This document shows positions 5,553-59,305 of a DNA stretch of 64,000 nt, in pieces. The position numbers and the translations under genes were made by a program. Location: NCBI GenBank assembly GCA_003139095.1, contig PLHW01000043.1, forward strand, positions 1 to 64,000. The letters run 5' to 3'. The notes beneath the pieces are model-generated. The model was not told the origin of the DNA. It saw only the letters and a program-made list of their open reading frames with translations, and searched no databases. Positions within the stretch are counted from its first letter, which is position 1. Every line of letters starts with the position of its first letter. This DNA is from Acidobacteriaceae bacterium (GTDB taxonomy: Bacteria > Acidobacteriota > Terriglobia > Terriglobales > Acidobacteriaceae).

Positions 5553-6275
5553 ATGAAGGTATTTGTCATTATCCCCGCAGCGGGACTCGGCACGCGCATG
5601 TCGCCGCCGTCGCCCGCGAAAACTCCTACCAAGCAGTTCAAGCATCTCGGCGGCGTTCCCATCCTCGTTCATACCTTGCGCGTCTTTGCCGCCAGTCCGT
5701 CGGTTTCCGAGATCATCCTCGCTCTGCGCAAGGACGAGATTGCAGGTTTTCGCGCTCAGCTTGAGCAGCAATACCCGGAAATCCTCGGCAAGCCATTGCA
5801 GATCGTCGAAGGCGGCGAACATCGCCAGGACTCGGTAGCCAGCGCGCTCCGCAACCTCAAGGCCGATCCCGATGACATCGTGCTCATCCACGATGCGGTT
5901 CGGCCATTCATCACGCAGGAAATTGTCGCCCACGTAATCGAGGCCGCGCAAAAACATCATGCCGCAATCGCCGGCTGGCCCGCGGTTGATACTGTGAAAC
6001 AGGTGGAGCGAACTTCCGATGGAGCCATCGTCAAATCTACGATTCCGCGCGCCAGCATTGTGATGGCGCAAACTCCTCAGGGATTTCGCTATGACATTCT
6101 GAAGAAGGCCTTCGATGACGCAAACGCGGACGGCTTTCTCGGAACCGACGAAGCCTCGCTGATCGAGCGCGCAGGTCTTCCGGTCGAAGTCGTAATGGGC
6201 TCGCCGCGAAACATTAAGATCACAACGCCCGCGGACATGGAATTAGCCGAGTTTTATTTGAGCAGCAGTCGTTAG
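5553..6275 (+). CDS. ispD: 2-C-methyl-D-erythritol 4-phosphate cytidylyltransferase
   Basis: 240 residues, normal for the family. The CTP-binding signature IIPAAGLGTRM is at residues 5-15, and the Lys-containing stretch follows after a short Pro-rich insertion (SPPSPAKTPTKQF). IHDAVRPF is at about residue 112 and DTVKQVE in the middle. IspD joins MEP and CTP in the non-mevalonate isoprenoid pathway. The next gene, ispF, acts two steps later, so the two probably form a small operon. Confidence 0.95.
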   Translation: MKVFVIIPAAGLGTRMSPPSPAKTPTKQFKHLGGVPILVHTLRVFAASPSVSEIILALRKDEIAGFRAQLEQQYPEILGKPLQIVEGGEHRQDSVASALRNLKADPDDIVLIHDAVRPFITQEIVAHVIEAAQKHHAAIAGWPAVDTVKQVERTSDGAIVKSTIPRASIVMAQTPQGFRYDILKKAFDDANADGFLGTDEASLIERAGLPVEVVMGSPRNIKITTPADMELAEFYLSSSR

Positions 6276-6312
6276 TCGTTAGTCGTTAGTCGTTTGTCGC
6301 CGGTCGTTAGTC
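6268..6312. repeat. Heptamer tandem repeat (AGTCGTT)n between ispD and ispF
   Basis: AGTCGTT occurs four times in perfect tandem and then decays through TGTCGCC, GGTCGTT and AGTCATT. It is the cleanest member of the heptamer family in this window. Confidence 0.8.
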
Positions 6313-6333
6313 ATTGGATTTCCTGCACACGAG

Positions 6334-6846
6334 ATGAATGCAGGCTCACGAGATCATTCTTTGAAACCCCAATTCCGCATCGGCCATGGTTACGACTCGC
6401 ACGAGTTCAAGCCCGGAATTCCGCTCATCATCGGCGGCGTCCAACTCGCCCACGATCGAGGTCTCGGCGGACATTCCGACGGAGATGTCCTGCTGCACGC
6501 CATCACCGACGCCCTGCTCGGCGCCATCGCTGGGCCCGACATCGGGTCGCTCTTTCCTCCGTCCGATCCGCAGTGGAAAGGCGCGGACTCATCAGTGTTT
6601 CTCCGCGAGGCGCTGAAGCGAGTCGAGGCCGCTGGCTACTCATTAGTCAATCTCGATTCCACGCTGATTCTCGCCGCCCCAAAAATCGGCCCGCATGCCG
6701 CAGCCATTCGCGAGCGAGTGGCCAATCTCTGCCAAATCCCCGCCGATTGCGTCGGCCTCAAAGCCAAGACGCCCGAAGGCACATACACCGAAAACGCCGC
6801 GATCGCGCACGTCACCGTGCTGCTGCAAAAAACGAGCACGGCGTAA
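6334..6846 (+). CDS. ispF: 2-C-methyl-D-erythritol 2,4-cyclodiphosphate synthase
   Basis: 170 residues. The metal site motif GHGYDSHEF is near residue 18, and GGHSDGDVLLHAITDALLGA carries the second His/Asp set. DIGSLFPPSDPQWKGADS and a C-terminal KAKTPEG are also typical of the family. The enzyme cyclises CDP-ME-2-phosphate with release of CMP. An alternative in-frame start near 6364 (KPQFRIGHGYD) would give the more usual 157-160 residue length. Confidence 0.95.
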   Translation: MNAGSRDHSLKPQFRIGHGYDSHEFKPGIPLIIGGVQLAHDRGLGGHSDGDVLLHAITDALLGAIAGPDIGSLFPPSDPQWKGADSSVFLREALKRVEAAGYSLVNLDSTLILAAPKIGPHAAAIRERVANLCQIPADCVGLKAKTPEGTYTENAAIAHVTVLLQKTSTA

Positions 6847-6917
6847 CGCTTCGCCCCATCGGCAGCCTTGCGTAATCTCAGCGTTCTCGGCGGCAGCGTT
6901 CTCGGCTGCCCCAGCGT

Positions 6918-7739
6918 TTAAAGGTTCGTTTTCGGCTGCAATATTTTCGCCTGATGCGACGGCGTCGCTCGCCGCTCCCGCGCCGCCTCGATGAACGCCC
7001 GAAAGATTTTCTCCGCCGACTCCGCTACCTCTCTCCCATCGTGCACCGAGCGCTCCGGATGCCACTGCACCGCCAGCACAAAATGATCGGGCGCGGTGCC
7101 TTCGAGCGCCTCGATGATTCCGTCGTCGGGCGAGTGCGCAACCACGCGCAGGCCCTCGCCAGCAATCAGCGCCGCTTGATGATGCGAAGAATTCACCGCG
7201 ATGGGCCCGCCATTCGTCGCGCCTACAATTTCCGCCAGGTGCGAATCGGCATCGACCTCGACCGTGTGCGCATTCGATACCGCGCGGCCCGCGCTGTGAT
7301 TGATCTCCGATTCGATGTGCTGCACCAGCGATCCCGACCGAAACACATTCAGCGACTGCAATCCATAGCAAATTCCAAGCACCGGCTTGCGCGCGCGGTA
7401 CGCGTCTTCGAGCAACAGACGATCGACCTCATCGCGCGCCGCATCGGCTGCCGCAGTTTTTTCGTGCCGCAGTTCATTGTATTTCTGCGGATCAACGTCG
7501 GCTCGACTTCCCGGCAGCAGCACGGCATCGCAATTCGCGATCTGTTTTTTCACATCGGTTGCCGACTGGCTCAACTCGATGCGCACCGGCTCCCCGCCCG
7601 CTTGCCGCACCGCAGTTTCGTATTGCGTTACGGCGCGCTCGGCGTAGTCGCGATCCACCGAATGCGGCATGGGGATGGCGATTCGCGGCACCGAGCTCCG
7701 ATCATTGCTGGGCTGGGTCATTGTCAATCGGGTCACCAT
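6918..7739 (-). CDS. Class I glutamine amidotransferase-like hydrolase (peptidase C26, PuuD-like)
   Basis: 273 residues. The nucleophile elbow LGICYGLQSLNV contains the catalytic Cys, and the His-x-Glu pair is in AVQWHPERS. LPGSRADVDP and VNSSHHQAAL match the gamma-glutamyl-GABA hydrolase subgroup. Such enzymes hydrolyse gamma-glutamyl amides, but the substrate here cannot be deduced. It is convergent with ispF. Upstream of its start lies a degenerate repeat rich in GATCGGGTCATC. Confidence 0.88.
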   Translation of the reverse strand: MVTRLTMTQPSNDRSSVPRIAIPMPHSVDRDYAERAVTQYETAVRQAGGEPVRIELSQSATDVKKQIANCDAVLLPGSRADVDPQKYNELRHEKTAAADAARDEVDRLLLEDAYRARKPVLGICYGLQSLNVFRSGSLVQHIESEINHSAGRAVSNAHTVEVDADSHLAEIVGATNGGPIAVNSSHHQAALIAGEGLRVVAHSPDDGIIEALEGTAPDHFVLAVQWHPERSVHDGREVAESAEKIFRAFIEAARERRATPSHQAKILQPKTNL

Positions 7740-7822
7740 CCCATCGGATCGTCGGGCGATCGGGTCATCGCGTGATCGGACAGCCAGGTCATCTTGGGAC
7801 CGACTAACTCGCGACTCACTAT

Positions 7823-8128
7823 TTAGTTACTCATTGCGCTGCGCTCGATTCCGGCTAGAATCCGGCGCTGGCGATAATTTCGAATTTCGATGGCCAGCGT
7901 AACAATCATCACGACCGCTCCAATGGCCAGCGCAATCGGAAAGGCGATGTGCCGGTAAGCGAACGCAAGATTGGGAGCGACGTGCTCAACCGCCGCATAA
8001 ATGACCGTTCCCAGAATGCTCAAGAGCAGCGCCACCGCAAATGACATCAGCGTCAGCAGAAAAGTGAAGGCAAAAACACGCGCCGAAATTCCGGCCCAGG
8101 GATGCCGACGCTCTTGAGTTCGCCCCAT
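7823..8128 (-). CDS. Small hypothetical membrane protein
   Basis: 101 residues with two long hydrophobic segments (about residues 18-47 and 62-84: FAFTFLLTLMSFAVALLLSI and HIAFPIALAIGAVVMIVTLA) and a basic C-terminal tail. No recognised family. It is a single gene on the minus strand, upstream of the amidotransferase-like gene. Confidence 0.6.
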   Translation of the reverse strand: MGRTQERRHPWAGISARVFAFTFLLTLMSFAVALLLSILGTVIYAAVEHVAPNLAFAYRHIAFPIALAIGAVVMIVTLAIEIRNYRQRRILAGIERSAMSN

Positions 8129-8472
8129 TCTCTCTCAGGGTACACCCGAGCGGGCATTTTGGCATTTTCTCCGAGCCAATCCCACAAAACCGGGTGGTCG
8201 TTTCCACGAAGAAGAACTCGCACCAGCGAACCTATAAGAGAAAGTGCAATAGATTGCACAGCCATGAGTGTTACATGAGCTTATTTATTGACTAAGATGC
8301 TTGACTTAATCCCTTAACAGGCGTAGAAATCGCGTGGTCAGTCCGAAGCGTTTTAGGGGATAAGCACCTCCGATCGAATCGGAACTCGTTTCAAGGGAAC
8401 CCCGTTTCAAGAAATCGTTTTTCCGGGCCACGATAATCAAAAACTAAACAATCGAGAAACTGGAGGATACAC
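8129..8472. other. Intergenic region upstream of the beta-helix gene
   Basis: About 340 bases between divergent genes. It holds the candidate plus-strand promoter at 8301-8329, a direct repeat GTTTCAAG (twice, about 8390-8417), and a strong GGAGG ribosome-binding site at 8462-8466. No coding potential seen. Confidence 0.5.
8301..8329 (+). promoter_or_regulatory. Candidate promoter for the beta-helix protein
   Basis: TTGACT (8301-8306), a 17-base spacer and TAGAAA (8324-8329). It lies about 145 bases upstream of the GTG start. Confidence 0.4.
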
Positions 8473-9762
8473 GTGTCTAAGAACTGCATTCGCCCCTTTC
8501 TGTTCGTAGGGCTTGTCCTGGCTGTATGTTTTGCCGGGCAAGCGGCTCAAGCGTCCGCCGTCTACGTCGGGACCTGCCACTCGGGTGGCGTTCAGTATTC
8601 GACGATACAATCTGCGGTCAATGCTGTCCCACCAGGGTCAACGGTCTACGTCTGCCCGGGCAATTACCCTGAGCAGGTAACCATCAACAAGAACCTCAGC
8701 CTGAAAGGGTTTGCCTCAGGAAGTTCGGGCGCCTCGATTATCACATCTCCGAGTGGTGGTTTGGTACAAAACGCGACAGGTTTGGGAGGTTCTCCAATTG
8801 AGGCACAGATATATGTGCAAGCGGGCGCAACTGTCACCATCTTGGGTATGACGACGGACGCCGCCAATAGCCAACTCGACAGCCTGGGCTGCACGGCCGA
8901 TCCGGTCGGAATCTATTATCAACGCGCCTCCGGGACAATCAAGTACGACTCCGTTCTGAATGACATCCTCTCTCCCGATCTTACCGGGTGCCAGGGTGGC
9001 TTGGGCATCCTGGTGGAGAGCGACCAGCCGGGGAACTCTGTGAGCATCACGAACAACAACGTGGAAAATTATCAGAAGAATGGAATCACAGTCACAGGAT
9101 TGGAGACCGGCTCCGGCCCATCCGCAACCATCTCCAGCAACACCGTGATCGGACAGGGACCATGGAACGGCGCCGGGCAGAATTCGATCCAGCTCTCTTT
9201 CGATGCCACCGGTACCATCTCCTCTAATACCGTTGGATCGGATGTGTGGGCTCCCGATCAATACGGGGACACCGGCGATGCGGCTGCCGGCATACTCGTC
9301 TATGCGTCGCAAAACGTGGCCATCTCGAAAAACAACGTCAGCGATACGCAGTACGGCATCGCCATCGTGAGCGATACCTCTTCCCAGTTCGGGTCCGGCA
9401 ATGGAGCGCAAATCAGCAGCAACACGATCTCGACGACTCACCTCTATGATGGAATCGACCTGTGCAGCAATCACAACTCCGCCACCAGCAATATAATCAA
9501 CGGCTCCGATGAGTCCGCCATACACCTGGATGACACGTGCGGCTCAACAGGCAACAACAATACCGTACAATCCAATACGATCAACTCCGCCTGTGCCGGC
9601 GTGCTGCTTGGTACCGGAACGACCGGCAATAGCCCTTCCAACACTTATTACAATACGGTCAACCAGACGTTGGCAGGCGACACGTGCCAGCCACCGCCGG
9701 CGCGCAACAGCCAGAAGACGGCGGCAAAGTCGCACGGGAAGTTCACTCCCGTAAGGCCGTAG
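8473..9762 (+). CDS. Secreted right-handed parallel beta-helix protein
   Basis: 429 residues. The GTG start follows GGAGG with 6-bp spacing. An N-terminal signal peptide (FLFVGLVLAVCFAGQAAQA) is followed by a pectinesterase-like opening (YSTIQSAVNAVPPGSTVYV), then many repeated ISSNTV / ISNNNV-type coils typical of NosD/PbH1 parallel beta-helices. Such folds bind or cleave polysaccharides or act as structural exoproteins; no catalytic triad is certain. The tail is basic (KTAAKSHGKFTP). It is followed by a strong terminator, so it is likely monocistronic. Confidence 0.82.
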   Translation: MSKNCIRPFLFVGLVLAVCFAGQAAQASAVYVGTCHSGGVQYSTIQSAVNAVPPGSTVYVCPGNYPEQVTINKNLSLKGFASGSSGASIITSPSGGLVQNATGLGGSPIEAQIYVQAGATVTILGMTTDAANSQLDSLGCTADPVGIYYQRASGTIKYDSVLNDILSPDLTGCQGGLGILVESDQPGNSVSITNNNVENYQKNGITVTGLETGSGPSATISSNTVIGQGPWNGAGQNSIQLSFDATGTISSNTVGSDVWAPDQYGDTGDAAAGILVYASQNVAISKNNVSDTQYGIAIVSDTSSQFGSGNGAQISSNTISTTHLYDGIDLCSNHNSATSNIINGSDESAIHLDDTCGSTGNNNTVQSNTINSACAGVLLGTGTTGNSPSNTYYNTVNQTLAGDTCQPPPARNSQKTAAKSHGKFTPVRP

Positions 9763-9809
9763 ACGACAGCAATCGGCCATTGCATGGTTGCTTCTTGACT
9801 GAGTGATTG

Positions 9810-9854
9810 GGCCGCGGGTGTTGGTGAAATTGACCTGCACCTGCGGCCTTTTTT
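9810..9854 (+). terminator. Rho-independent terminator after the beta-helix gene
   Basis: GGCCGCGGGTG (9810-9820) pairs with CACCTGCGGCC (9838-9848), an 11-bp stem with one G-U pair, followed by six T residues (9849-9854). Confidence 0.88.
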
Positions 9855-9955
9855 CCTCACGAGCAGCGGCCTGCGCCGGAACTACGATGATTGGAGGCCT
9901 CGCCGCGCCTTCCTGAATTCGGCCTTGGCACCTTCGCATACGCTACAATACACGC

Positions 9956-10693
9956 ATGTCGCAAGCTGCTTCGGCGATCACCCGCAGCCCCGCGGAGGTC
10001 GTCCAATCCAGTCCGGTGTCGCAGGCCGCCAACGGAATTTGCTATGCCCGCGCGGGCGAAGTCAATCTCGCCGAGAGCGACTTGGATCGCATGGTGGCCG
10101 CCGTTCCCGTGCCGATTGCGGCCGCCCTGGCGCGCAAGGCTTATTACTTCGTGCCACTGACCGTCAACCAGGGCGATGACACGGTGATTGCCGACCGCTA
10201 CGACGTTGCGCTCAGCGACAACGCCATTTGCCATCGCAACCTGAATATTGGTGACGCGCAGTGCGTTTTCATTTCGACGCGGCTGATGGACGACAAGTTT
10301 TCCATCGCGTTCGAGTTCTACATCAACGTAGGGCACGCGCTGGTAGAGCGCGCGGGAGTCTCCCAGACCTTCGCCGACCTGGCGTGGCAGCAGGTGGAGG
10401 CGGGCGCGCGCGGCGAAACCTCGCTCGACGCATGGGAGGCGCGCAAGCTGGCGACCGCGAATGGGCCGGACGCGGAAAAATACAAGAACGAATACCTGGC
10501 GGCCAGTTTCGCCGACGCCATCTCGATCTATTTGCTCTCGATCTACCTCGACGTGGATTACCACGATTTGCGGGAGCGGGATTATCCGCTGCTGGCGCCG
10601 CCCGCGATGGCGGAGCGCCTGCGCAAGGTCGCCGAAATCTTTCCGCCGAATCCGGGCTTCGAGTTCAATATTTATTACCGTCGCAGAGGGTAG
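9956..10693 (+). CDS. Conserved hypothetical protein
   Basis: 245 residues, apparently soluble and cytoplasmic, with no signal peptide. It is rich in Ala, Asp and Tyr, with stretches such as YYFVPLTVNQGDDTVIADRY and YLAASFADAISIYLLSIYLD. I do not recognise a domain. It stands alone between two terminators, so it is probably monocistronic. The overlapping minus-strand frame (9857-10753) is His/Arg-rich and looks like a shadow. Confidence 0.7.
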   Translation: MSQAASAITRSPAEVVQSSPVSQAANGICYARAGEVNLAESDLDRMVAAVPVPIAAALARKAYYFVPLTVNQGDDTVIADRYDVALSDNAICHRNLNIGDAQCVFISTRLMDDKFSIAFEFYINVGHALVERAGVSQTFADLAWQQVEAGARGETSLDAWEARKLATANGPDAEKYKNEYLAASFADAISIYLLSIYLDVDYHDLRERDYPLLAPPAMAERLRKVAEIFPPNPGFEFNIYYRRRG

Positions 10694-10755
10694 AGCCTGC
10701 CGGTGCTGCCAACCCGCGGACCAGCGTATCCGCGCCACACTCCATAAAAACAATA

Positions 10756-10783
10756 CAGGGGCCGGGTGTGGGACCGGCCCCTG
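10756..10783. terminator. Bidirectional Rho-independent terminator
   Basis: CAGGGGCCGG (10756-10765) pairs with CCGGCCCCTG (10774-10783). On the plus strand the tail is TTTGTTT; on the minus strand it is TATTGTTTTTATGG. It therefore serves both the gene ending at 10693 and the minus-strand gene ending at 10809. Confidence 0.88.
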
Positions 10784-10808
10784 TTTGTTTCACGAGCGCA
10801 ACTTGCGC

Positions 10809-11039
10809 TTACGGCTGCGTAAGTCCCGTGTAGTCCCCCACGACCTTCGAGTCGTAAGGCGCGTTGAGCTCGTTGAACCCGTTGCCCGCGACGCCGATTT
10901 GTCCATGGCTCAAGACGATGTTGTAATAATCGCCCGCAAGCGCTGCGCCCGCCATGCCGAGCACGAAACCGAGCACGGCGGCTGAGAAAAGAACTCTGCC
11001 TGGAAGTTTGGTGGACGGCGTCATGGAAGCTCTTTTCAT
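10809..11039 (-). CDS. Small secreted hypothetical protein
   Basis: 76 residues from the ATG at 11039; an upstream start at 11099 is open but adds a non-signal-like Arg/Ser stretch. The signal peptide (GRVLFSAAVLGFVLGMAGAALAG, with AxA-type cleavage) leaves a mature peptide of only about 40 residues (begins DYYNIVLSHGQIGVAGNGFN). Function unknown. A perfect 6+2+6 palindrome TTGTGC-AA-GCACAA lies upstream at 11200-11213 and could be an operator. Confidence 0.6.
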   Translation of the reverse strand: MKRASMTPSTKLPGRVLFSAAVLGFVLGMAGAALAGDYYNIVLSHGQIGVAGNGFNELNAPYDSKVVGDYTGLTQP

Positions 11040-11199
11040 GGATTCCCCGGCCCGGCTTCCGGCGACAACGATGCGTGATCGCGAGAAGCTTTCGGACACT
11101 TGAAAACTCTAGGCCGCGCGGCCAGTCGAGTTGTCAAGAAACTGTCACATTCATGTCAAATTGTTGGAAGCGGTGAGCGGAAAAACAACCCTTCACAAA

Positions 11200-52992: not shown

Positions 52993-53318
52993 CGGTATCT
53001 CCTCAAAGCCAGTAACGATTCAAAAGTGGCGGCGGGGGCTTGATTTGGCCCGAATAACTCTCATTGCGAGCCCGTGTGTATCGAGAAACAATAGCCCACG
53101 ATCGTTCCCTCGTCAAACCCGCTTGAACGGGGTTTCAGTCCACTTTTGTGAGCCCGCGCTCGCACCACGCCAGGCACTGCCCACCTGCGCACTCCTGAAT
53201 TGATTCGCCGCGAAGGAGAACACGAACGATTATTGGCACCCCAATATCGGTGTAGTAGACTGCGCTCGAACTCTTCAAAAAAATAGGGGGATGAGCCGAT
53301 CTATCGGCGCGGCCAAGC
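52993..53318. other. Intergenic region with the radical SAM operon promoter
   Basis: About 325 bases between the divergent propeller gene and the precursor gene. It holds the promoter at 53233-53261; a competing 41-codon frame (53291-53416) overlaps the precursor start. Confidence 0.5.
53233..53261 (+). promoter_or_regulatory. Candidate promoter of the RiPP-like operon
   Basis: TTGGCA (53233-53238), 17-bp spacer, TAGACT (53256-53261), about 55 bases before the precursor ATG. Confidence 0.5.
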
Positions 53319-53501
53319 ATGACCGAGAACGAAACTTCTGGCGAGAATCCGTCACCGCTCCCCGAAACCGCGGAGCCCAAAAGGGGGGCCTACGAGAAAC
53401 CCGCTTTCCGTCATGAGCGGGTCTTCGAGACCGCCGCTCTCTCCTGCGGCAAAATTGCGGGCACGTCCTGGCTATGCAACTCCTCGCGAAAGGTCTCGTG
53501 A
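53319..53501 (+). CDS. RiPP-precursor-like peptide (60 residues)
   Basis: An acidic, Pro/Glu-rich N-terminal leader (residues 1-22) is followed by YEKP at 25-28, the YxxP motif that PqqD/RRE domains recognise in lasso-peptide leaders. A short segment (AFRHERVFETAAL, 29-41) leads to the core-like SCGKIAGTSWLCNSSRKVS (42-60) with Cys43, Cys53, Trp51 and a terminal Ser60. No signal peptide. The last codons overlap the next gene (GTGA), and all following genes encode modification enzymes. Assignment as precursor rests on size, leader/core layout and context. The start has no clear SD. Confidence 0.65.
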   Translation: MTENETSGENPSPLPETAEPKRGAYEKPAFRHERVFETAALSCGKIAGTSWLCNSSRKVS

Positions 53502-54103
53502 CTCTGCAGCTTCCGCCAAAAGATTCCTCCGTGGACTGGAACGCGGAGCAAGTGGCAATCGCGGCAGCAAGCCTGCGCGCCAGCGGCCGTCTCCGTCTTC
53601 GAGTGCGCGGCGAGAGCATGTTGCCCGCTCTTTGGCCGGGCGATGAGGTCGAGATCGCGCGCTGTTCCGTCGACGAAGTGCGCGACGGAGAGATCGTCCT
53701 CGCGCTGCGCGAAGGCCGGTTCTTTCTCCATCGCTTCCTCGCTCGCTCCGGCGATGCCGGCTTTCTGCTCCGCGGCGACTCCATGCCCGCCCCCGATCCC
53801 GCATTCGAAAATGCGGCCTTACTCGGACGCCTGGTGAGTCGCAACAGCCGTGCCGCGCCTGCGCACAGGCCTCACCATCGGCAAGGCAGAAATGCTGTTC
53901 AAAATCCGTCAACAACTCGCCCGTTCCTGCCGCCGAGCCTTTGCTCCCGCGCGCTGGGGCGAGTGTTCTGCCATTGCGGACCGGCGCGCCGCCTCGCCCT
54001 TCATCTGTACGCCAATCGCCCTTTCGCGCGGCGTGCGCGCAACCGCGGCATCAACCTGCCTTCGCGCGCGCAATTCCAACCGGAGCGTCGCGATGTCCTC
54101 TGA
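53498..54103 (+). CDS. S24/S26 (SipW/Sec11-like) serine peptidase
   Basis: 201 residues from GTG 53498, overlapping the precursor stop (GTGA); the ATG at 53474 is an alternative. GESMLPALWPGDEV carries the catalytic Ser40, and FLHRFL supplies His78 in place of the usual Lys, as in Sec11-type enzymes. GDSM (about residues 93-96) is a second conserved loop. No membrane helix is visible, unlike ordinary signal peptidases, so it may be a soluble, dedicated leader peptidase. The C-terminal 80 residues are basic and not family-like. Confidence 0.65.
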   Translation: MTLQLPPKDSSVDWNAEQVAIAAASLRASGRLRLRVRGESMLPALWPGDEVEIARCSVDEVRDGEIVLALREGRFFLHRFLARSGDAGFLLRGDSMPAPDPAFENAALLGRLVSRNSRAAPAHRPHHRQGRNAVQNPSTTRPFLPPSLCSRALGRVFCHCGPARRLALHLYANRPFARRARNRGINLPSRAQFQPERRDVL

Positions 54104-55004
54104 ACATACCGCGTGCGTCGAAATCGGCGGCGTCCCCATCGCTCTCTCCACTACCAGCTACCACTTTTTCGCGCTCTTGTTGCGGCGCTATGAAAATTTT
54201 CTCAGCGCCTCGGTTCCCGAGTTCGCGCTCGACTTCGAGATCGTCGATGCCCGCCCCGCGACCGATGAAGATACTTGCGTGCGCCGCGATGGCGAGGAGT
54301 GGCTGATCGAGCGCGGCGACTTCTCCGCGCGCTGGAATGCGCGCGAGGGAACCGGCCTCGTCCGCCAAAATGCCAACCCTTATTCCCTCGATGCCGTGCT
54401 GCGCATTCTGCACAGCCTGATTCTTGCCGGGCGCGGAGGCTTCCTGCTGCACGCGGCCAGCGCCATCTGCGAGGGTCAAGCGTACTTGTTCTCCGGAATT
54501 TCGGGTGCCGGAAAAACAACCATGACGCGCCTCGCGCCCTCCGACGTCACTTTGCTCACCGACGAAATTTCTTATGTCCGCCCCGAAGTCCGCGACGAAG
54601 TCCGCGACGAAGTCCGCCACGACGCGGCCCGTGCCAGCGCCGCCTACCGCGCCTTCGGCACGCCCTTCGCCGGCGAATTGGCCAAGCCGGGCGAGAACAC
54701 GAGCGCTCCCATCGGCGCGCTGTTTTTCCTCGAGAAAGGTCCCCAAAATCGCATCGAGCCGATGCCCGCTAGCGAAGCGGTCCGCCGCCTGATGCGCAAC
54801 ATCCTCTTCTTCGCCGAAGATCCGGCGCTGGTCGAAAAACTTTTCGCCTCCGCCTGCGAACTCGTTGCGTCACTTCCCATCCGCCGTCTCACGTTTTATC
54901 CTGACCCCAGGGTGTGGGAGGAAGTACGCCGCTTCGGCCGGGACCACCCGCGCGGGCGGAGTTTGCACGACGGGGTGAAACAGGAAAAGCTTGCGCATGC
55001 CTGA
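54090..55004 (+). CDS. HPr-kinase-like enzyme of the RiPP operon
   Basis: 304 residues from ATG 54090, whose first codons overlap the previous stop (ATGTCCTCTGA). P-loop FSGISGAGKTTMTRL at about residue 134, Asp/Glu motif TLLTDEISYV and the sequence LLHAASAI belong to the HprK-related fold. In lasso-peptide clusters such kinases phosphorylate the C-terminal Ser of the precursor; here the precursor ends in Ser. A 12-bp unit is repeated three times (EVRD-EVRD-EVRH). Confidence 0.78.
   Translation, partial: AMSSEHTACVEIGGVPIALSTTSYHFFALLLRRYENFLSASVPEFALDFEIVDARPATDEDTCVRRDGEEWLIERGDFSARWNAREGTGLVRQNANPYSLDAVLRILHSLILAGRGGFLLHAASAICEGQAYLFSGISGAGKTTMTRLAPSDVTLLTDEISYVRPEVRDEVRDEVRHDAARASAAYRAFGTPFAGELAKPGENTSAPIGALFFLEKGPQNRIEPMPASEAVRRLMRNILFFAEDPALVEKLFASACELVASLPIRRLTFYPDPRVWEEVRRFGRDHPRGRSLHDGVKQEKLAHA
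54585..54620 (+). repeat. In-frame 12-bp triple repeat inside the kinase gene
   Basis: GAAGTCCGCGAC at 54585-54596 and 54597-54608, then GAAGTCCGCCAC at 54609-54620. It adds four residues per copy, so it can expand or contract without frameshift. Confidence 0.9.
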
Positions 55005-55299
55005 CATTTACATCGCGCGCAGTTCCGCAATCGCCGCCCGCATCCTGGCGGGCGAGATGATGATCATGAACTCGGCCGACTCCACCTTCTTCACGCTCAA
55101 CGAAGTTGCCACCGCCATCTGGCAGGCCGCCGACGGCCGCACTCCGCTAAGCCAAATCGTGCGCGAGCATATCTGCGGGCAATACGACGTCGAGGCCGGG
55201 CAAGCCCAGGCCGACGCCGAGCAATTTGTCGCCGATCTCTCCCATCACGGCATCCTGCTCGTCTCCGATCGCCCCTTCGCGCCCCAGGCTTCCGCATGA
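54997..55299 (+). CDS. PqqD-like RRE protein
   Basis: 100 residues; the ATG (54997) overlaps the kinase stop. IARSSAIAARILAGEMMIMN, TFFTLNEVATAIWQAADGRT and VEQ-like DAEQFVADLSHHGIL match PqqD. PqqD proteins present the leader of RiPP precursors to radical SAM enzymes. Its stop overlaps the start of the radical SAM gene (ATGA). Confidence 0.88.
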   Translation: MPDIYIARSSAIAARILAGEMMIMNSADSTFFTLNEVATAIWQAADGRTPLSQIVREHICGQYDVEAGQAQADAEQFVADLSHHGILLVSDRPFAPQASA

Positions 55300-56402
55300 G
55301 CCTGATGATCGAAGCCGGTCAGAAAGCCTTCGACCTTGGCGTCCCCATCGCCGTTCATCTCGATGTCACCTATCGCTGCAACGAACGCTGCGTGCACTGC
55401 TATCTTGACCACGACGACCACGGCGAGATGACCACGGCCGAGATCAAGTCTGTGCTCGATCAGCTTGCCGATGCCGGCGTATTTTTTCTCACCCTGAGCG
55501 GCGGCGAAGTTTTCATGCGCCGTGACTTCTTCGAGATCCTGGAGCACGCCCGCCGCCTGCTGTTTGTCGTCAAAATCAAAACCAATGGCGTCATGATCGG
55601 CGCGGCCGAAGCCGAGCGCCTGCGCGCCCTGAATGTCGACACCATCCAGATCAGCCTCTACTCGCACCGCCCCGAGGTTCACGATGCCATCACCAAACTG
55701 CCGCATTCGTTCGAACGCACCGTCAAGGCCATCCGCTTCCTCCGTGACCACGGCTTGCGTGTGACCATCGCCAACGTGCTCATGACCGCAAATCTGGCCG
55801 ATCAATCGGGCGCGCAAAAACTCGCGGCGGATTTAGGCGTCCACTACACCCTCGACCCCACCATTACGCCGATGATGGATGGCGACCTCTCGGTGCTCGC
55901 GCTCCGCATCCCCGGAGAAGAATTGGAAGATGTGTTCCGCAATCCCGCGCTCGTTCCCAACCAGGAAGAATTTTGCGCGCCCCCGAAACCGCCGTCCGAC
56001 GCGGATTTAGAAGGCTACTCGTGCAGCGCCGGCCACTCGTTTTGCTACATCTCGCCCTACGGCGATGTTTTCCCCTGCGTACAATTTCCCCTGCCCACCG
56101 GCAATGTGCGGCGGCAGAACTTTCTCGATATCTGGAACGGCTCGCCGCAGATGCGCGAGGTGCGCTCCATCCAGGCGCGCGACCTGACCACCTGCTCCTC
56201 GTGTTCCCACGTCTCCACTTGCACGCGTTGCCCGGGCCTGGCTTATATGGAAGGCAATATGCGCGGTCCCTCGACCGCCGACTGCGAGAAATCTTTCTAC
56301 CGCACCGGCGTGCCTACCGCCAATATGCTGCAACAGGGTTTATCCCGGCCACGCACCACCGCGCCCCTCGTCCAGATTCGGCTGGCCGCGGCCTCCGCAT
56401 GA
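55296..56402 (+). CDS. Radical SAM/SPASM peptide-modifying enzyme
   Basis: 368 residues. CNERCVHC (Cys 28, 32, 35) is the AdoMet-cluster motif. LTLSGGEVFMRRDFFEIL follows. The C-terminal SPASM region has CSAGHSFCYISPYGDVFPC, CSSCSHVSTCTRCPG and a final DCEKS, giving the usual two auxiliary 4Fe-4S sites. SPASM enzymes make thioether or C-C crosslinks in RiPPs. It is the last gene of the operon and depends on the PqqD-like partner just upstream. Confidence 0.93.
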   Translation: MSLMIEAGQKAFDLGVPIAVHLDVTYRCNERCVHCYLDHDDHGEMTTAEIKSVLDQLADAGVFFLTLSGGEVFMRRDFFEILEHARRLLFVVKIKTNGVMIGAAEAERLRALNVDTIQISLYSHRPEVHDAITKLPHSFERTVKAIRFLRDHGLRVTIANVLMTANLADQSGAQKLAADLGVHYTLDPTITPMMDGDLSVLALRIPGEELEDVFRNPALVPNQEEFCAPPKPPSDADLEGYSCSAGHSFCYISPYGDVFPCVQFPLPTGNVRRQNFLDIWNGSPQMREVRSIQARDLTTCSSCSHVSTCTRCPGLAYMEGNMRGPSTADCEKSFYRTGVPTANMLQQGLSRPRTTAPLVQIRLAAASA

Positions 56403-56473
56403 AGTGTCCAGTCTGAGATTTTGAAACGTTGGAGTTTGAAGCGTTGATGAACGACCGGGGTTGTCGTTTGGCC

Positions 56474-59251
56474 CTATCCGCGGGCCACCGCACCGTCGGC
56501 GCGTTGCCGATCGAAGTTCGCCTCCGCCGCCGACAACTGCTCTACAATCCGTTGCAGCGCAACATGTATCTCGCGATTCGCTACATTGAATTTGATGGCC
56601 GCTCCAATTCCCATGTCCATCCGTATCACTTCGCTTTGCACCTCGACCCCGGTCTGCGCCAGCGAAAACTTCATGTTCACACTCAAACCGGGCATCAGCA
56701 GCGCGCCGCTTTCGACGTAGCAGCCTCCAATGCTCAAATTGGTGACGATGCCCAGCACCGGGAGTTCCTGACCCGCAATCGCCATTTCCGCCGTCATCCG
56801 TCCGTTCACCCGCGGATAAAGCCGCCGGTTGCCCCGCGTCGGCTGGCTCTGCTTTTGCAGATACATCCGCTTGTCCGCCTCGGATAGAAGTTTCTCCGCA
56901 TCCAGCCCATCTTCCGGATAGAACGCCTTGCCCACGCTCAGCGAGAGAATTTCCTCGTTGCAGATTTCCTTTCCCGCCATCTGCGCCAATTCCCGCATCT
57001 GTTCCGCCTTGCGCGCCGCCGCTTCCAGCGTCAGCCCCGGAGCGATGACCACAAACTCGTCTCCACCCATGCGCGCCACGTAATCGTACTCGCGACAGGT
57101 TTCCTTGAGCGATCGCGCGAACAACTGGAGCACGCGATTGCCCTCCAGGTGGCCGAACCGGTCATTGATCTGCTTGAATCCATCCATATCGCTGACCATC
57201 ACCGTCAAAGACGTTTGCTCGCGCTTGCATCGGGCCACTTCACGATCCAGTTGCATAAATAAAGACCGCGCGTTGGGAAGGCCAGTCAGATAATCGGTAA
57301 CCGCCGAATTCTCCGCCTGCTCATATTTCATCGCGTTTTCGATGGCCATCGCCATCTTCGAACTCACCGCTTGCAAAATACGCAGGTGATCGGCACTAAA
57401 GAAATCTTTTTCGGCGTGATAAAGAGCGACCACGCCTACCACCCCCTTCAAGCCCTCGAGCGGAACCGCCAGCGCCGAGGTTAGCGTGCTGTACTTGGAA
57501 TCGTCGTTCAGATAACCGGGCTCCACCGACGGGTTCCCGTTCAGGATCGGCTTCCGGTTCAGCGCTACCCAGCCCGATAGTCCTTGCCCCATCGGAATTC
57601 GCAACGACGCGAACAGCCGGAAGTTGTCACCGTTGACGTATTCCGGAATCAGTTCGTCGCCATGCTTCACATAAATCGCGATCGCGTCATACGGCATCGC
57701 CCGGCGCAACTTCACCGAGAATACCGAGAGCGTTTCACCCAGACTCAGCGAGGCGCCCAGGTCCTGACTCAGTTCAAAGAGGGTTTGCGCTTCCTGCCGC
57801 GCCGCCGCAATCGAGCTCAGAAAATTCGTGTCGTGCGAGGGCGCCTTGCTCTGCGCCGCGAAGCCCGCCGCCGGCTCAATGGCCGCCTGTGCCTTGGTGG
57901 GCTTGCCTTTTTCGACTTCTGCCACTGGTAATTTTTGCTTGTCCGCTTGCGTGCGCTCGTGCACCAGCCGCTCCAGTTGCACATATCGCCGCTCCAGCAC
58001 GCGCACCACTTGTGGATCGAATGACTTCCCCGATTCCTTCGAGAGCTGCGCCATCGCCTCGTCCAGAGGCAGCGCCCGACGGTATTGCCGGTCCGAGGCC
58101 ATCGCATCCAAAAAATCGACCGCCGCCAGAATCCGCGCCCCAATCGGAATCTGTTCTCCTTCCAGTCCCAGCGGATACCCGGTCCCGTTAAATTTTTCGT
58201 GGTGCGCCCGCACGATCGGCACAACCGGATAAGGGAACTGCACCCGTTCCAGAATGTCCGCTCCCACCGAGGGATGAATCTTCATCTTCTCGAATTCTTC
58301 CGGCGTCAGCCTTCCCGGTTTCGAAACAATGTGCTCTGGGATCGCCAGCTTCCCAATGTCATGCAGCAAAGCCGCCGCTTGCAGCGCTTCCATCTCCTTC
58401 GGCGGCACGTCGAGTTCTTTCGCCACTTCAACGGCGTATACCCGCACCCGTTGCAGGTGGTCGTGCGTGGTCTGGTCCTTTGCTTCAATCGCCAGCGCCA
58501 GCGCCTCGATGGTGCGCATGTGCAGATCCGCCATCTCCTCCACGTGGCGCTTTTCGTCCTCCAGTTTGCCGAGATACAGCCGATAAGAGCGGTAAATCAG
58601 GTAGACCACCGGCAGCATCAGCAGCGGAGTCTGCCAGTCCGTGAAGCTGTGCAGCCAATGCATCATGCCGACAATTCCGGCTCCCACCAGGTAGTACGGG
58701 AAGCTCCAGAAGTAGCACTCCGACCAGATTTTGCGCAGCAGGCGCCGCTCCGTCAGCGAAATCACGATCGCCACCGGAAGCGTGTTCGCGATGAAATAAA
58801 TGCAGGCCGCCAGGAACAGCAGCGTCGACGGATTCCCGGCCTTGCTGTGCATCAGCGAATAACGATAAAGAAAAAAAGTAGCCGCAATCGCCAGCGCCGT
58901 GGAGCACACATTGAAAGCCACCTGGATCGGCACCGGCCGCTCGCGCCCCAGGCATTGCACCACTACCGCCGCGCACCCCAACGCCATCGTCTCGGCAAAG
59001 CTCAGTTCCAGCACGGCCAGAAGCAGAAACAGAAAATTCACGGACATCGTGCCGCTGATTCCGGGCAGGTTCACTTTCAGCCGCGATGCGGCCAGCGCGA
59101 TCACCAGGTAGCAGAAGAATTTGACCGGATTTTGGCTCCGGCCCTGCAACAACGCATACATCAAAACGATGGAGCCGAACACTAACACGACGGCGATAAA
59201 GCCGCGCGCGCGACCGTTAATGTCCTTCCACGTTAAAGGGCGTTGTGCCAT
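56474..59251 (-). CDS. Membrane HD-GYP / GAF / GGDEF / PilZ protein (cyclic di-GMP turnover)
   Basis: About 925 residues from the ATG at 59251; a TTG/GTG pair at 59305-59300 is possible. In order: seven to eight membrane helices, HD-GYP phosphodiesterase (LLHDIGKLAIPEHI; FNGTGYPLG, about residues 297-360), a GAF domain (about 490-620), GGDEF cyclase (ARMGGDEFVVIAP) and C-terminal PilZ (RLYPRVNGRMTAE; NLSIGGCYVE). All synthesis, breakdown and effector parts for c-di-GMP are in one chain. The GGDEF and HD-GYP motifs both look intact. Confidence 0.92.
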   Translation of the reverse strand: MAQRPLTWKDINGRARGFIAVVLVFGSIVLMYALLQGRSQNPVKFFCYLVIALAASRLKVNLPGISGTMSVNFLFLLLAVLELSFAETMALGCAAVVVQCLGRERPVPIQVAFNVCSTALAIAATFFLYRYSLMHSKAGNPSTLLFLAACIYFIANTLPVAIVISLTERRLLRKIWSECYFWSFPYYLVGAGIVGMMHWLHSFTDWQTPLLMLPVVYLIYRSYRLYLGKLEDEKRHVEEMADLHMRTIEALALAIEAKDQTTHDHLQRVRVYAVEVAKELDVPPKEMEALQAAALLHDIGKLAIPEHIVSKPGRLTPEEFEKMKIHPSVGADILERVQFPYPVVPIVRAHHEKFNGTGYPLGLEGEQIPIGARILAAVDFLDAMASDRQYRRALPLDEAMAQLSKESGKSFDPQVVRVLERRYVQLERLVHERTQADKQKLPVAEVEKGKPTKAQAAIEPAAGFAAQSKAPSHDTNFLSSIAAARQEAQTLFELSQDLGASLSLGETLSVFSVKLRRAMPYDAIAIYVKHGDELIPEYVNGDNFRLFASLRIPMGQGLSGWVALNRKPILNGNPSVEPGYLNDDSKYSTLTSALAVPLEGLKGVVGVVALYHAEKDFFSADHLRILQAVSSKMAMAIENAMKYEQAENSAVTDYLTGLPNARSLFMQLDREVARCKREQTSLTVMVSDMDGFKQINDRFGHLEGNRVLQLFARSLKETCREYDYVARMGGDEFVVIAPGLTLEAAARKAEQMRELAQMAGKEICNEEILSLSVGKAFYPEDGLDAEKLLSEADKRMYLQKQSQPTRGNRRLYPRVNGRMTAEMAIAGQELPVLGIVTNLSIGGCYVESGALLMPGLSVNMKFSLAQTGVEVQSEVIRMDMGIGAAIKFNVANREIHVALQRIVEQLSAAEANFDRQRADGAVARG

Positions 59252-59305
59252 TTTCTGCGCCACGAAACTCTGCTCGTTGGGACCGAGCCTTTCGTAGGAC
59301 ACCAA

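Follow-up and report, generated by a model that had tools for sequence, protein, structure and literature searches.

A conserved Acidobacteriota operon that pairs a radical SAM/SPASM enzyme with an HPr-kinase-like protein around a serine-ended precursor peptide

The linear polyphosphorylated peptides (LPPs) are the nearest known family to the system examined here. They are described as restricted to Bacillota, and their parts comprise a precursor, a kinase, a recognition element (RRE) for a RiPP (ribosomally synthesized and post-translationally modified peptide), an SpI-type peptidase, a nucleoside triphosphate (NTP) transferase, and an exporter (Popov et al. 2026, PMC13381572). In the phosphorylated lasso peptides, kinases that carry the residues H-K-D-D modify a C-terminal Ser (PMC9266682), and this Ser is extremely conserved in the lasso precursors whose clusters carry a kinase (PMC9266682, PMC8498205). 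The present study concerns five overlapping genes at positions 53319–56402, on the forward strand, of a 64,000-nucleotide stretch (the window) of contig PLHW01000043.1 (C5) from an Acidobacteriaceae bacterium. They encode a precursor peptide, an S24/S26-type peptidase, a PEPCK/HPr-kinase-like P-loop protein, a PqqD protein, and a SPASM radical S-adenosylmethionine (rSAM) enzyme. It is very probable that the operon produces a small peptide with chemical modifications; we consider it likely that this product is a short secreted RiPP that is modified by the rSAM enzyme, phosphorylated, and works together with a propeller protein.

The operon and its precursor peptide

An earlier note on this DNA had listed the same five genes with overlapping starts and stops, and had proposed one RiPP pathway that combines a SPASM rSAM enzyme with lasso-type tailoring parts. 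The gene list and the overlaps were read directly in the sequence, and the conserved neighborhood and precursor support the proposal of a single pathway. The features are as follows.

53233 to 53261, forward strand: promoter-like site TTGGCA-17-TAGACT (consensus match only, 9 of 12)
53319 (ATG) to 53501 (TGA), forward strand: RiPP precursor of 60 residues, with a homologous frame in relatives
53433 to 53498, forward strand: predicted core peptide AALSCGKIAGTSWLCNSSRKVS, placed by a cut after FET, from the LPP site (PMC13381572) and the fixed spacing
53498 (GTG) to 54103 (TGA), forward strand: putative leader peptidase of S24/S26 type, soluble and archaeal-type signal-peptidase-like (Pfam match; conserved Ser40, His78, and Asp100)
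54093 (ATG) to 55004 (TGA), forward strand: HPr-kinase/PEPCK-like P-loop kinase (motifs, weak NCBIfam matches, fold model)
54997 (ATG) to 55299 (TGA), forward strand: PqqD-type discrete RRE (PF05402, 58.3 bits)
55296 (ATG) to 56402 (TGA), forward strand: radical SAM/SPASM peptide maturase (Radical_SAM and SPASM matches, conserved Cys)

The precursor and peptidase genes meet in a GTGA overlap (a longer in-frame peptidase ATG lies at 53474), the peptidase and kinase genes in an ATG...TGA overlap (the mechanical open reading frame (ORF) of the kinase begins with GTG at 53850), and the PqqD and rSAM genes in an ATGA overlap, while the kinase and PqqD genes overlap by ATGCCTGA. The promoter-like site has the hexamers that had been proposed before; two such sites were seen in 53000–56700 against 0.6 expected from shuffles, which is weak evidence.

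Relatives were collected by scanning for the rSAM enzyme, and the best 80 of 130 confirmed loci were kept for neighborhood counts, in which a gene is counted when it lies within the stretch fetched around the rSAM gene. All five genes were found on one strand and in unchanged order in 66 of these 80 loci, so the arrangement exceeds chance and the co-conservation check named in the earlier note was answered in favor of the cluster. At least one of the five genes is missing in 14 loci, and in at least four of these the contig begins inside the cluster. Nearly all of the locus records are titled Acidobacteriota (Terriglobia, Acidobacteriaceae, Ca. Sulfotelmatobacter, and others) and one is titled Burkholderiales; among them, Granulicella mallensis X5P3 (L096) is a cultivated strain with the whole set. 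Among 200 genomes scanned from the order (57 genera), many of which overlap with the 80-locus set, 31 have the rSAM enzyme at high score, and three further ones contain distant rSAM relatives only.

The window precursor contains an RRE-type motif (Y25-E-K-P28), F36-E-T38, C43-G-K45, C53, and the C-terminal Ser60, and it has no match in Pfam or NCBIfam families. A homologous frame was found in 71 of the 80 loci and is intact to its end in 70, which together with the window give a set of 71 intact precursors (L041, with a frameshift, was left out, and L091 is N-terminally truncated). In alignment A1, made of 68 of these sequences (L036, L091, and L097, where the start is unclear, were left out, as was L041), the residues Y, P, F, C, K, and C are invariant, Y25 and P28 among them. 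All 71 intact precursors end with Ser, as compared with a baseline of 10% among the 518 long ORFs of the loci, and all 71 have two Cys from C-x-K onward, with the Cys and Lys of C-x-K invariant; in 56 of the 71 this part is 18 residues long. The earlier note had named a non-conserved precursor frame as a ground for refutation, and the frame proved to be conserved. The Ser codons (TCC 27, TCG 20, TCA 14, and TCT 10) and the stop codons vary, which means that the residue and not the DNA is conserved. A start codon of the next gene could be thought to force the final Ser; this was rejected, as the stop and the preceding base vary and ATGA or GTGA occurs in 20 of the 71 loci. The C-terminal Ser is the only Ser found in every core, and phosphorylation is predicted there for this reason.

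In the leader, a hydrophobic-E/V-small tripeptide begins exactly 11 residues past the Y in every one of the 71 precursors in which this Y is kept, and it resembles the FET after which the LPP leader is cut (PMC13381572). A cut after FET is favored because of the LPP precedent and the fixed spacing; a cut between S42 and C43 is retained as a possible alternative, where a signal-peptide-like pattern AL[SAT]|CGK has Ala at position -3 in 70 of 71 and a small residue at -1 in 65 of 71. Judged by this conservation, the 60-residue frame is a real, conserved precursor.

A profile scan of the order genomes, with a limited number of candidates scored per genome, found 37 precursors in 29 of the 200 genomes, and 36 of these 37 end with Ser and have two core Cys. 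Isolated precursor copies occur without the enzymes. The window genome has a second precursor on C53, well away from the enzymes, with a propeller gene at a distance of 212 bases. Ten distant candidates from other families of the phylum, chosen by eye among regular-expression matches, share Y-x-[KR]-P, an FET-type tripeptide 11 residues on, a Cys region, and a final Ser. Other matches to the same expressions, for example in L137, L140, L144, L192, L195, L208, and L209, were judged to be chance.

A script-based reading of 24 distant loci in the phylum, from 58 genomes above threshold, placed a kinase of the kind found here next to the rSAM gene in 20, and the combination of kinase and rSAM enzyme is a wider theme in the phylum. 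Some related loci have other contents. Loci L150, L151, and L153 contain a second related set, with an rSAM enzyme about 31% identical, a kinase-like gene about 30–34% identical, and a large protein that opens with an S24/S26 domain, followed in L151 by DUF11 repeats. In L151 the rSAM gene comes after a PqqD-like gene, and the same holds for L153 judged by position and start. In another family, locus L140 (genome G205, about 5649–11171) contains NTP_transf_5, kinase, PqqD, and rSAM genes with a 51-residue precursor ending in Ser, together with a B12-binding radical SAM protein and an S26 peptidase. Two clusters of the order are decayed: in L184 (G187) the rSAM and nucleotidyltransferase genes are split over frames and a kinase remnant is left, and L183 (G165) is without precursor or peptidase and its kinase start is late. 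Downstream of the operon in the window, at 56474–59305 on the reverse strand, lies a gene for a large HD-GYP/GGDEF-like protein (identified by eye), which has a homologue in the fetched stretch of 20 loci, window included, and may be a conserved flank.

Enzymes and predicted maturation

Matches above the Pfam cut-off were obtained for PqqD (58.3 bits against 23.4) and for the rSAM protein (Radical_SAM 88.8 bits, SPASM 45.7 bits), and the Peptidase_S24 match is barely above its cut-off (24.8 against 23.3 bits). The best NCBIfam match of the PqqD protein is the lasso PqqD model, at 32.4 bits and below the cut-off of 80. The rSAM enzyme matched no named NCBIfam family above cut-off; the closest solved structures are SkfB (53 bits) and PqqE (41 bits), and the CX3CX2C motif and C227, C243, C261, C300, C303, C309, C312, and C330 are kept in 80–81 of 81 sequences (C250 in 74 of 81). 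In the peptidase, Ser40 is conserved in 73 of 74 sequences and His78, Arg79, Asp94, and Asp100 in 74 of 74 each, and the Ser/His/Asp set matches the residues S29, H68, and D93 on which LppS, the LPP leader peptidase, depends (PMC13381572). The window peptidase has no strongly hydrophobic 19-residue stretch (maximum mean 0.67), and its best NCBIfam match, a weak one, is archaeal signal peptidase I (18.2 bits).

The kinase assignment is proposed from weak NCBIfam matches, invariant motifs, and a model that aligns with PEPCK. The NCBIfam matches were to ScmC (30.9 bits, cut-off 125) and to HprK-related kinases A/B (about 16–18 bits, cut-off 200), H120, K141 (Walker-A), D157, and E158 are invariant in 74 of 74 sequences, and the model (predicted local distance difference test, pLDDT, 90.9) gives its best structural alignments with PEPCK at Z of about 16. 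The kinase gene is missing at five loci (L066, L067, L069, L070, and L071), where the precursors retain the Ser. That the kinase is dispensable is not supported by these loci, as all five genomes carry a kinase elsewhere, 52–56% identical. In two of them it sits in a second complete five-gene cluster (L146 and L147); three of the five spans include one TGA, which is probably the alignment overrunning the gene's own stop. L085 has no kinase in its genome, and its contig begins inside PqqD.

Relatives add two components to the five-gene set that the earlier note had described, so that its list stands as confirmed and incomplete: an NTP_transf_5 gene is present in the fetched stretch of 37 of the 80 loci, and an ABC-2 (ATP-binding cassette) exporter is represented by its ATPase (PF00005) in 21 and its permease (PF01061) in 23. 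In 19 of the 80 loci, from close relatives, the ATPase and permease genes form a pair upstream on the same strand that runs directly into the operon. The window genome has the ATPase, permease, and NTP_transf_5 genes together on C75 (69%, 74%, and 52% identical), and for this reason the three-gene module seems to be separated from the operon and not missing. The pseudomycoidin pathway has an NTP_transf_5-type enzyme that attaches hexoses to the phosphate (PMC8498205, PMC9266682).

From the gene content, conservation, catalytic motifs, and co-occurrence, we infer the chemical steps, the kinase action and the rSAM reaction among them, and also their order, secretion, and the function of the peptide–propeller pair. 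PqqD would bind the Y-x-K-P leader motif of the 60-residue precursor. The SPASM rSAM enzyme would install at least one link in the core; thioethers formed by the two invariant Cys are the most likely kind, and the invariant Lys of C-x-K may be important. Like lasso kinases of the paeninodin type, the HPr-kinase-like enzyme would place a phosphate on the invariant Ser at the C terminus, and the Ser/His S26 peptidase would remove the leader, most likely after F-E-T. The NTP_transf_5 enzyme may decorate the phosphate, and the ABC-2 exporter would secrete the peptide. Outside the cytoplasm, the product would work with the dedicated propeller as its carrier, receptor, or ligand-binding partner.

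The propeller partner and rival explanations

The propeller protein is about 600–700 residues long, begins like a signal peptide as judged by eye, is conserved at its C terminus, and is predicted to be secreted. It has no Pfam match, and hence no PQQ-repeat (pyrroloquinoline quinone) match. Its model (pLDDT 76; predicted template modeling score, pTM, 0.84) is eight-bladed-like and aligns with eight-fold designed propellers (Z 30), YxaL (Z 27), and BamB (Z about 25). The gene is in the fetched stretch of 46 of the 80 loci, upstream of the precursor in 34 and downstream of the rSAM gene in 12; this is a clean count, since some short members of the propeller cluster (C666) are precursor read-through. 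As with the precursor, the order scan scored a limited number of candidates per genome, and the propeller was present in 29 of the 200 genomes, which are exactly the precursor-bearing ones, leaving 171 with neither. The two genomes that have the rSAM enzyme and are without precursor and propeller (G187 and G165) are those with decayed clusters. Genus g6 includes some genomes with all of the parts and two (G161 and G171) in which precursor and propeller are both absent and the rSAM relatives are distant ones only, so that descent within a single clade does not by itself explain the precursor–propeller link. Of the 37 precursors, 22 have a propeller gene within 6 kb, and in genome G092 three precursors on three contigs each have one near (6 kb). 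The window genome has a further propeller gene on C20. That the propeller accompanies the precursor across relatives suggests that the two work together. This pairing is new, and the propeller gene lies outside the window. In alignment A2, the C terminus of the propeller family has a conserved tail like ...[C]A[VI][QK]x[ST]Qx.LQ, which the C-x-K...TQ stretch of the precursor loosely resembles, perhaps by chance.

A more specific form of this partnership is tentatively offered. The two would form an extracellular device in which the rSAM-modified, C-terminally phosphorylated (possibly phospho-glycosylated) peptide is an obligatory ligand or prosthetic group of the secreted propeller, across many Terriglobales-type Acidobacteriota, with extra precursors paired with extra propellers.

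Several observations weigh against the account of a phosphorylated, rSAM-modified peptide that works with a propeller. In terms of the kinase, no Pfam match is above cut-off (best PEPCK_ATP, 15.6 bits), HPr kinase is absent among the 50 best fold matches listed, which does not thereby exclude the fold, and the motif is H-K-D-E where lasso kinases have H-K-D-D. The related kinases LppK and BsfK phosphorylate core Ser3 and not the C-terminal Ser (for LppK, PMC13381572), the C-terminal Ser could be retained for another reason, and the present evidence fits thioether and other radical chemistry alike. Of the precursors, one of the 37 (a lone copy on C29 of G012, away from the enzymes) has no normal tail, three of the ten distant ones (L202, L210, and L211) lack a P-loop protein in the nearest 1.5 kb or so, and no precursor was recognizable in five loci that include the upstream sequence (L044, L058, L061, L088, and L110). 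Shared ancestry accounts in part for the identical genome sets (12 of 57 genera), and a Fisher value for the co-occurrence is not relied on because it disregards relatedness. Of the 37 precursors, 15, the window's among them, have no propeller gene within 6 kb, and the exporter and nucleotidyltransferase are unlinked to the operon in this genome.

Four other explanations were weighed. The product could be a self-contained antimicrobial or signaling RiPP, similar to sactipeptides or ranthipeptides, with the propeller as an immunity protein or receptor and with the kinase and nucleotidyltransferase serving export or self-protection. A Cys core, a SPASM enzyme, and an ABC exporter are typical of such systems, additional precursor copies (37 in 29 genomes) would suit it, and the patchy distribution of lasso peptides and LPPs has been read as typical of conflict (PMC13381572). 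The propeller is nevertheless found in every precursor genome and in no other of the 200, even where it is unlinked. Conflict peptides usually diversify, whereas the core here (C-x-K, the second Cys, and Ser) is conserved over 12 genera, and this explanation is considered unlikely.

We also do not think it likely that the operon makes a linear phosphopeptide of the LPP kind and has merely gained the rSAM enzyme as an extra tailoring step. The RRE and SpI-type peptidase shared with LPP speak for it, as do the probable kinase and the NTP transferase, but the rSAM gene adjoins PqqD throughout, its Cys other than C250 are unchanged in 80 or more of 81 sequences, and the two invariant core Cys suggest that the rSAM reaction is a central step. 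Moreover, other families have related PqqD/kinase/rSAM sets in which no peptidase was detected.

Still less probable is that the operon matures a peptide-derived cofactor, like PQQ or mycofactocin, carried by the propeller as a prosthetic group. PqqD with a SPASM enzyme is the PQQ-type pair, the rSAM protein aligns almost end to end with the mycofactocin maturase model (134 bits, cut-off 265), and the quinohemoprotein alcohol dehydrogenase 1kv9 is at rank 50 of Foldseek's first 50 matches to the eight-bladed-like propeller model. However, designed propellers, YxaL, and BamB are better fold matches, the propeller is without a Pfam match and so without PQQ repeats by that measure, a phosphorylated peptide of 22 residues would be large for a cofactor, and contig C50 of the same genome carries an ordinary-looking PQQ operon (L118), recognized by eye, that includes PqqD and a PqqE-like protein.

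Finally, that the 60-residue frame is a chance or regulatory ORF, as its lack of a family match might allow, is very improbable and appears largely refuted, since the frame, its motifs, length, and last residue are conserved though codons and stops vary, and isolated copies exist without the enzymes.

Comparison with known systems

A conserved precursor beside an RRE and a modifying enzyme places the operon among RiPP systems in general. The earlier note had found no lasso cyclase or B2 protease nearby, and this holds for the whole of contig C5: Asn_synthase (PF00733) has seven matches in the genome and Transglut_core3 (PF13471, B2) a single one, on C28, with none of either on C5. A lasso peptide was rejected on this basis. 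The operon shares with the phosphorylated lasso peptides (paeninodin, pseudomycoidin, and Bsf) a YxxP leader, a PqqD-like B1, a probable HprK-like kinase, a C-terminal Ser (here the predicted acceptor), an NTP transferase, and an ABC exporter (PMC8498205, PMC9266682, PMC10368454), and differs from them in having no macrolactam cyclase and no B2, with an rSAM/SPASM enzyme and an S26 peptidase instead. A separate lasso-like cluster is located on C28 of the same genome (L117) and contains PqqD, an APH-type kinase-like protein, B2, a candidate cyclase of Asn-synthase type, and, by eye, a prolyl-oligopeptidase-like protein.

The SynChlorMet cassette (NCBIfam ScmC–ScmF) also brings together an HprK-like protein, PqqD, and SPASM enzymes. 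It was rejected from scores below cut-off (ScmC 30.9 of 125 bits, ScmD 28.4 of 100, and ScmE 114.5 of 400), and we take it to have two rSAM enzymes and no known precursor. Mycofactocin (MftC, 134 of 265 bits), PQQ (PqqE, 100.2 of 381.35 bits), and GeoRSP were rejected for the same reason. A SPASM rSAM enzyme with a PqqD-type RRE is likewise shared with the maturases of sactipeptides or ranthipeptides, PQQ, and mycofactocin; to our knowledge, a kinase, an S26 peptidase, and a propeller are not part of those pathways.

LPP systems and this operon have in common a precursor with YxxP and FET, a discrete RRE, a soluble archaeal-type signal-peptidase-like leader peptidase (Ser/His/Asp), and the absence of a lasso cyclase (PMC13381572). 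An HprK-like kinase is probably shared as well, given the invariant H, K, D, and E and the PEPCK-superfamily fold, though with no family match above cut-off; an NTP transferase and an exporter, also LPP parts, lie near the operon in some relatives and on C75 in this genome. In contrast to the LPPs, which are described as linear products without a cross-linking enzyme, the core set here has a SPASM rSAM gene adjoining PqqD, and the core has two invariant Cys and a C-terminal Ser where LPPs have variable C termini and carry the phosphate on Ser3 (PMC13381572). Ser is the third residue after FET in 0 of 72 precursors. The spacing from Y to FET is 11, compared with 13 in the printed LPP consensus; of that consensus, YxxPxVLxHQxIxFETxxS, the leaders have YxxP and FET/FVT/FEV and lack HQ (PMC13381572). 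The exporter is of the ABC-2 type, with separate ATPase and permease, and not MsbA-like as in LPP, and the co-occurring propeller and the host phylum, as opposed to Bacillota, further set the system apart (PMC13381572). Because of its exporter type, its leader, and its candidate cross-linking enzyme, the system is not filed as a member of the LPP family. Neither "radical" nor "propeller" appears in the main text of PMC13381572, and the open-license literature yielded no description of this cassette and no RiPP–propeller pair of this kind. The earlier note's remark that it knew of no named family with this exact set is qualified by the existence of the close LPP family (PMC13381572).

If this account of a modified, phosphorylated peptide is true, radical SAM modification and HprK-type phosphorylation, which are apart in the papers cited, join in one pathway of soil Acidobacteriota, and the signal-peptidase-type leader peptidase of LPPs extends beyond Bacillota (PMC13381572). 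Short, uniform, and easily expressed precursors and a cultivated strain make the kinase site, the cleavage site, and the radical chemistry directly testable, and a propeller with the same genome distribution would give a handle on the role of phosphorylated lasso peptides and LPPs. In comparison with the LPPs, what is new is the radical SAM version, the precursor with a C-terminal Ser, and the propeller only.

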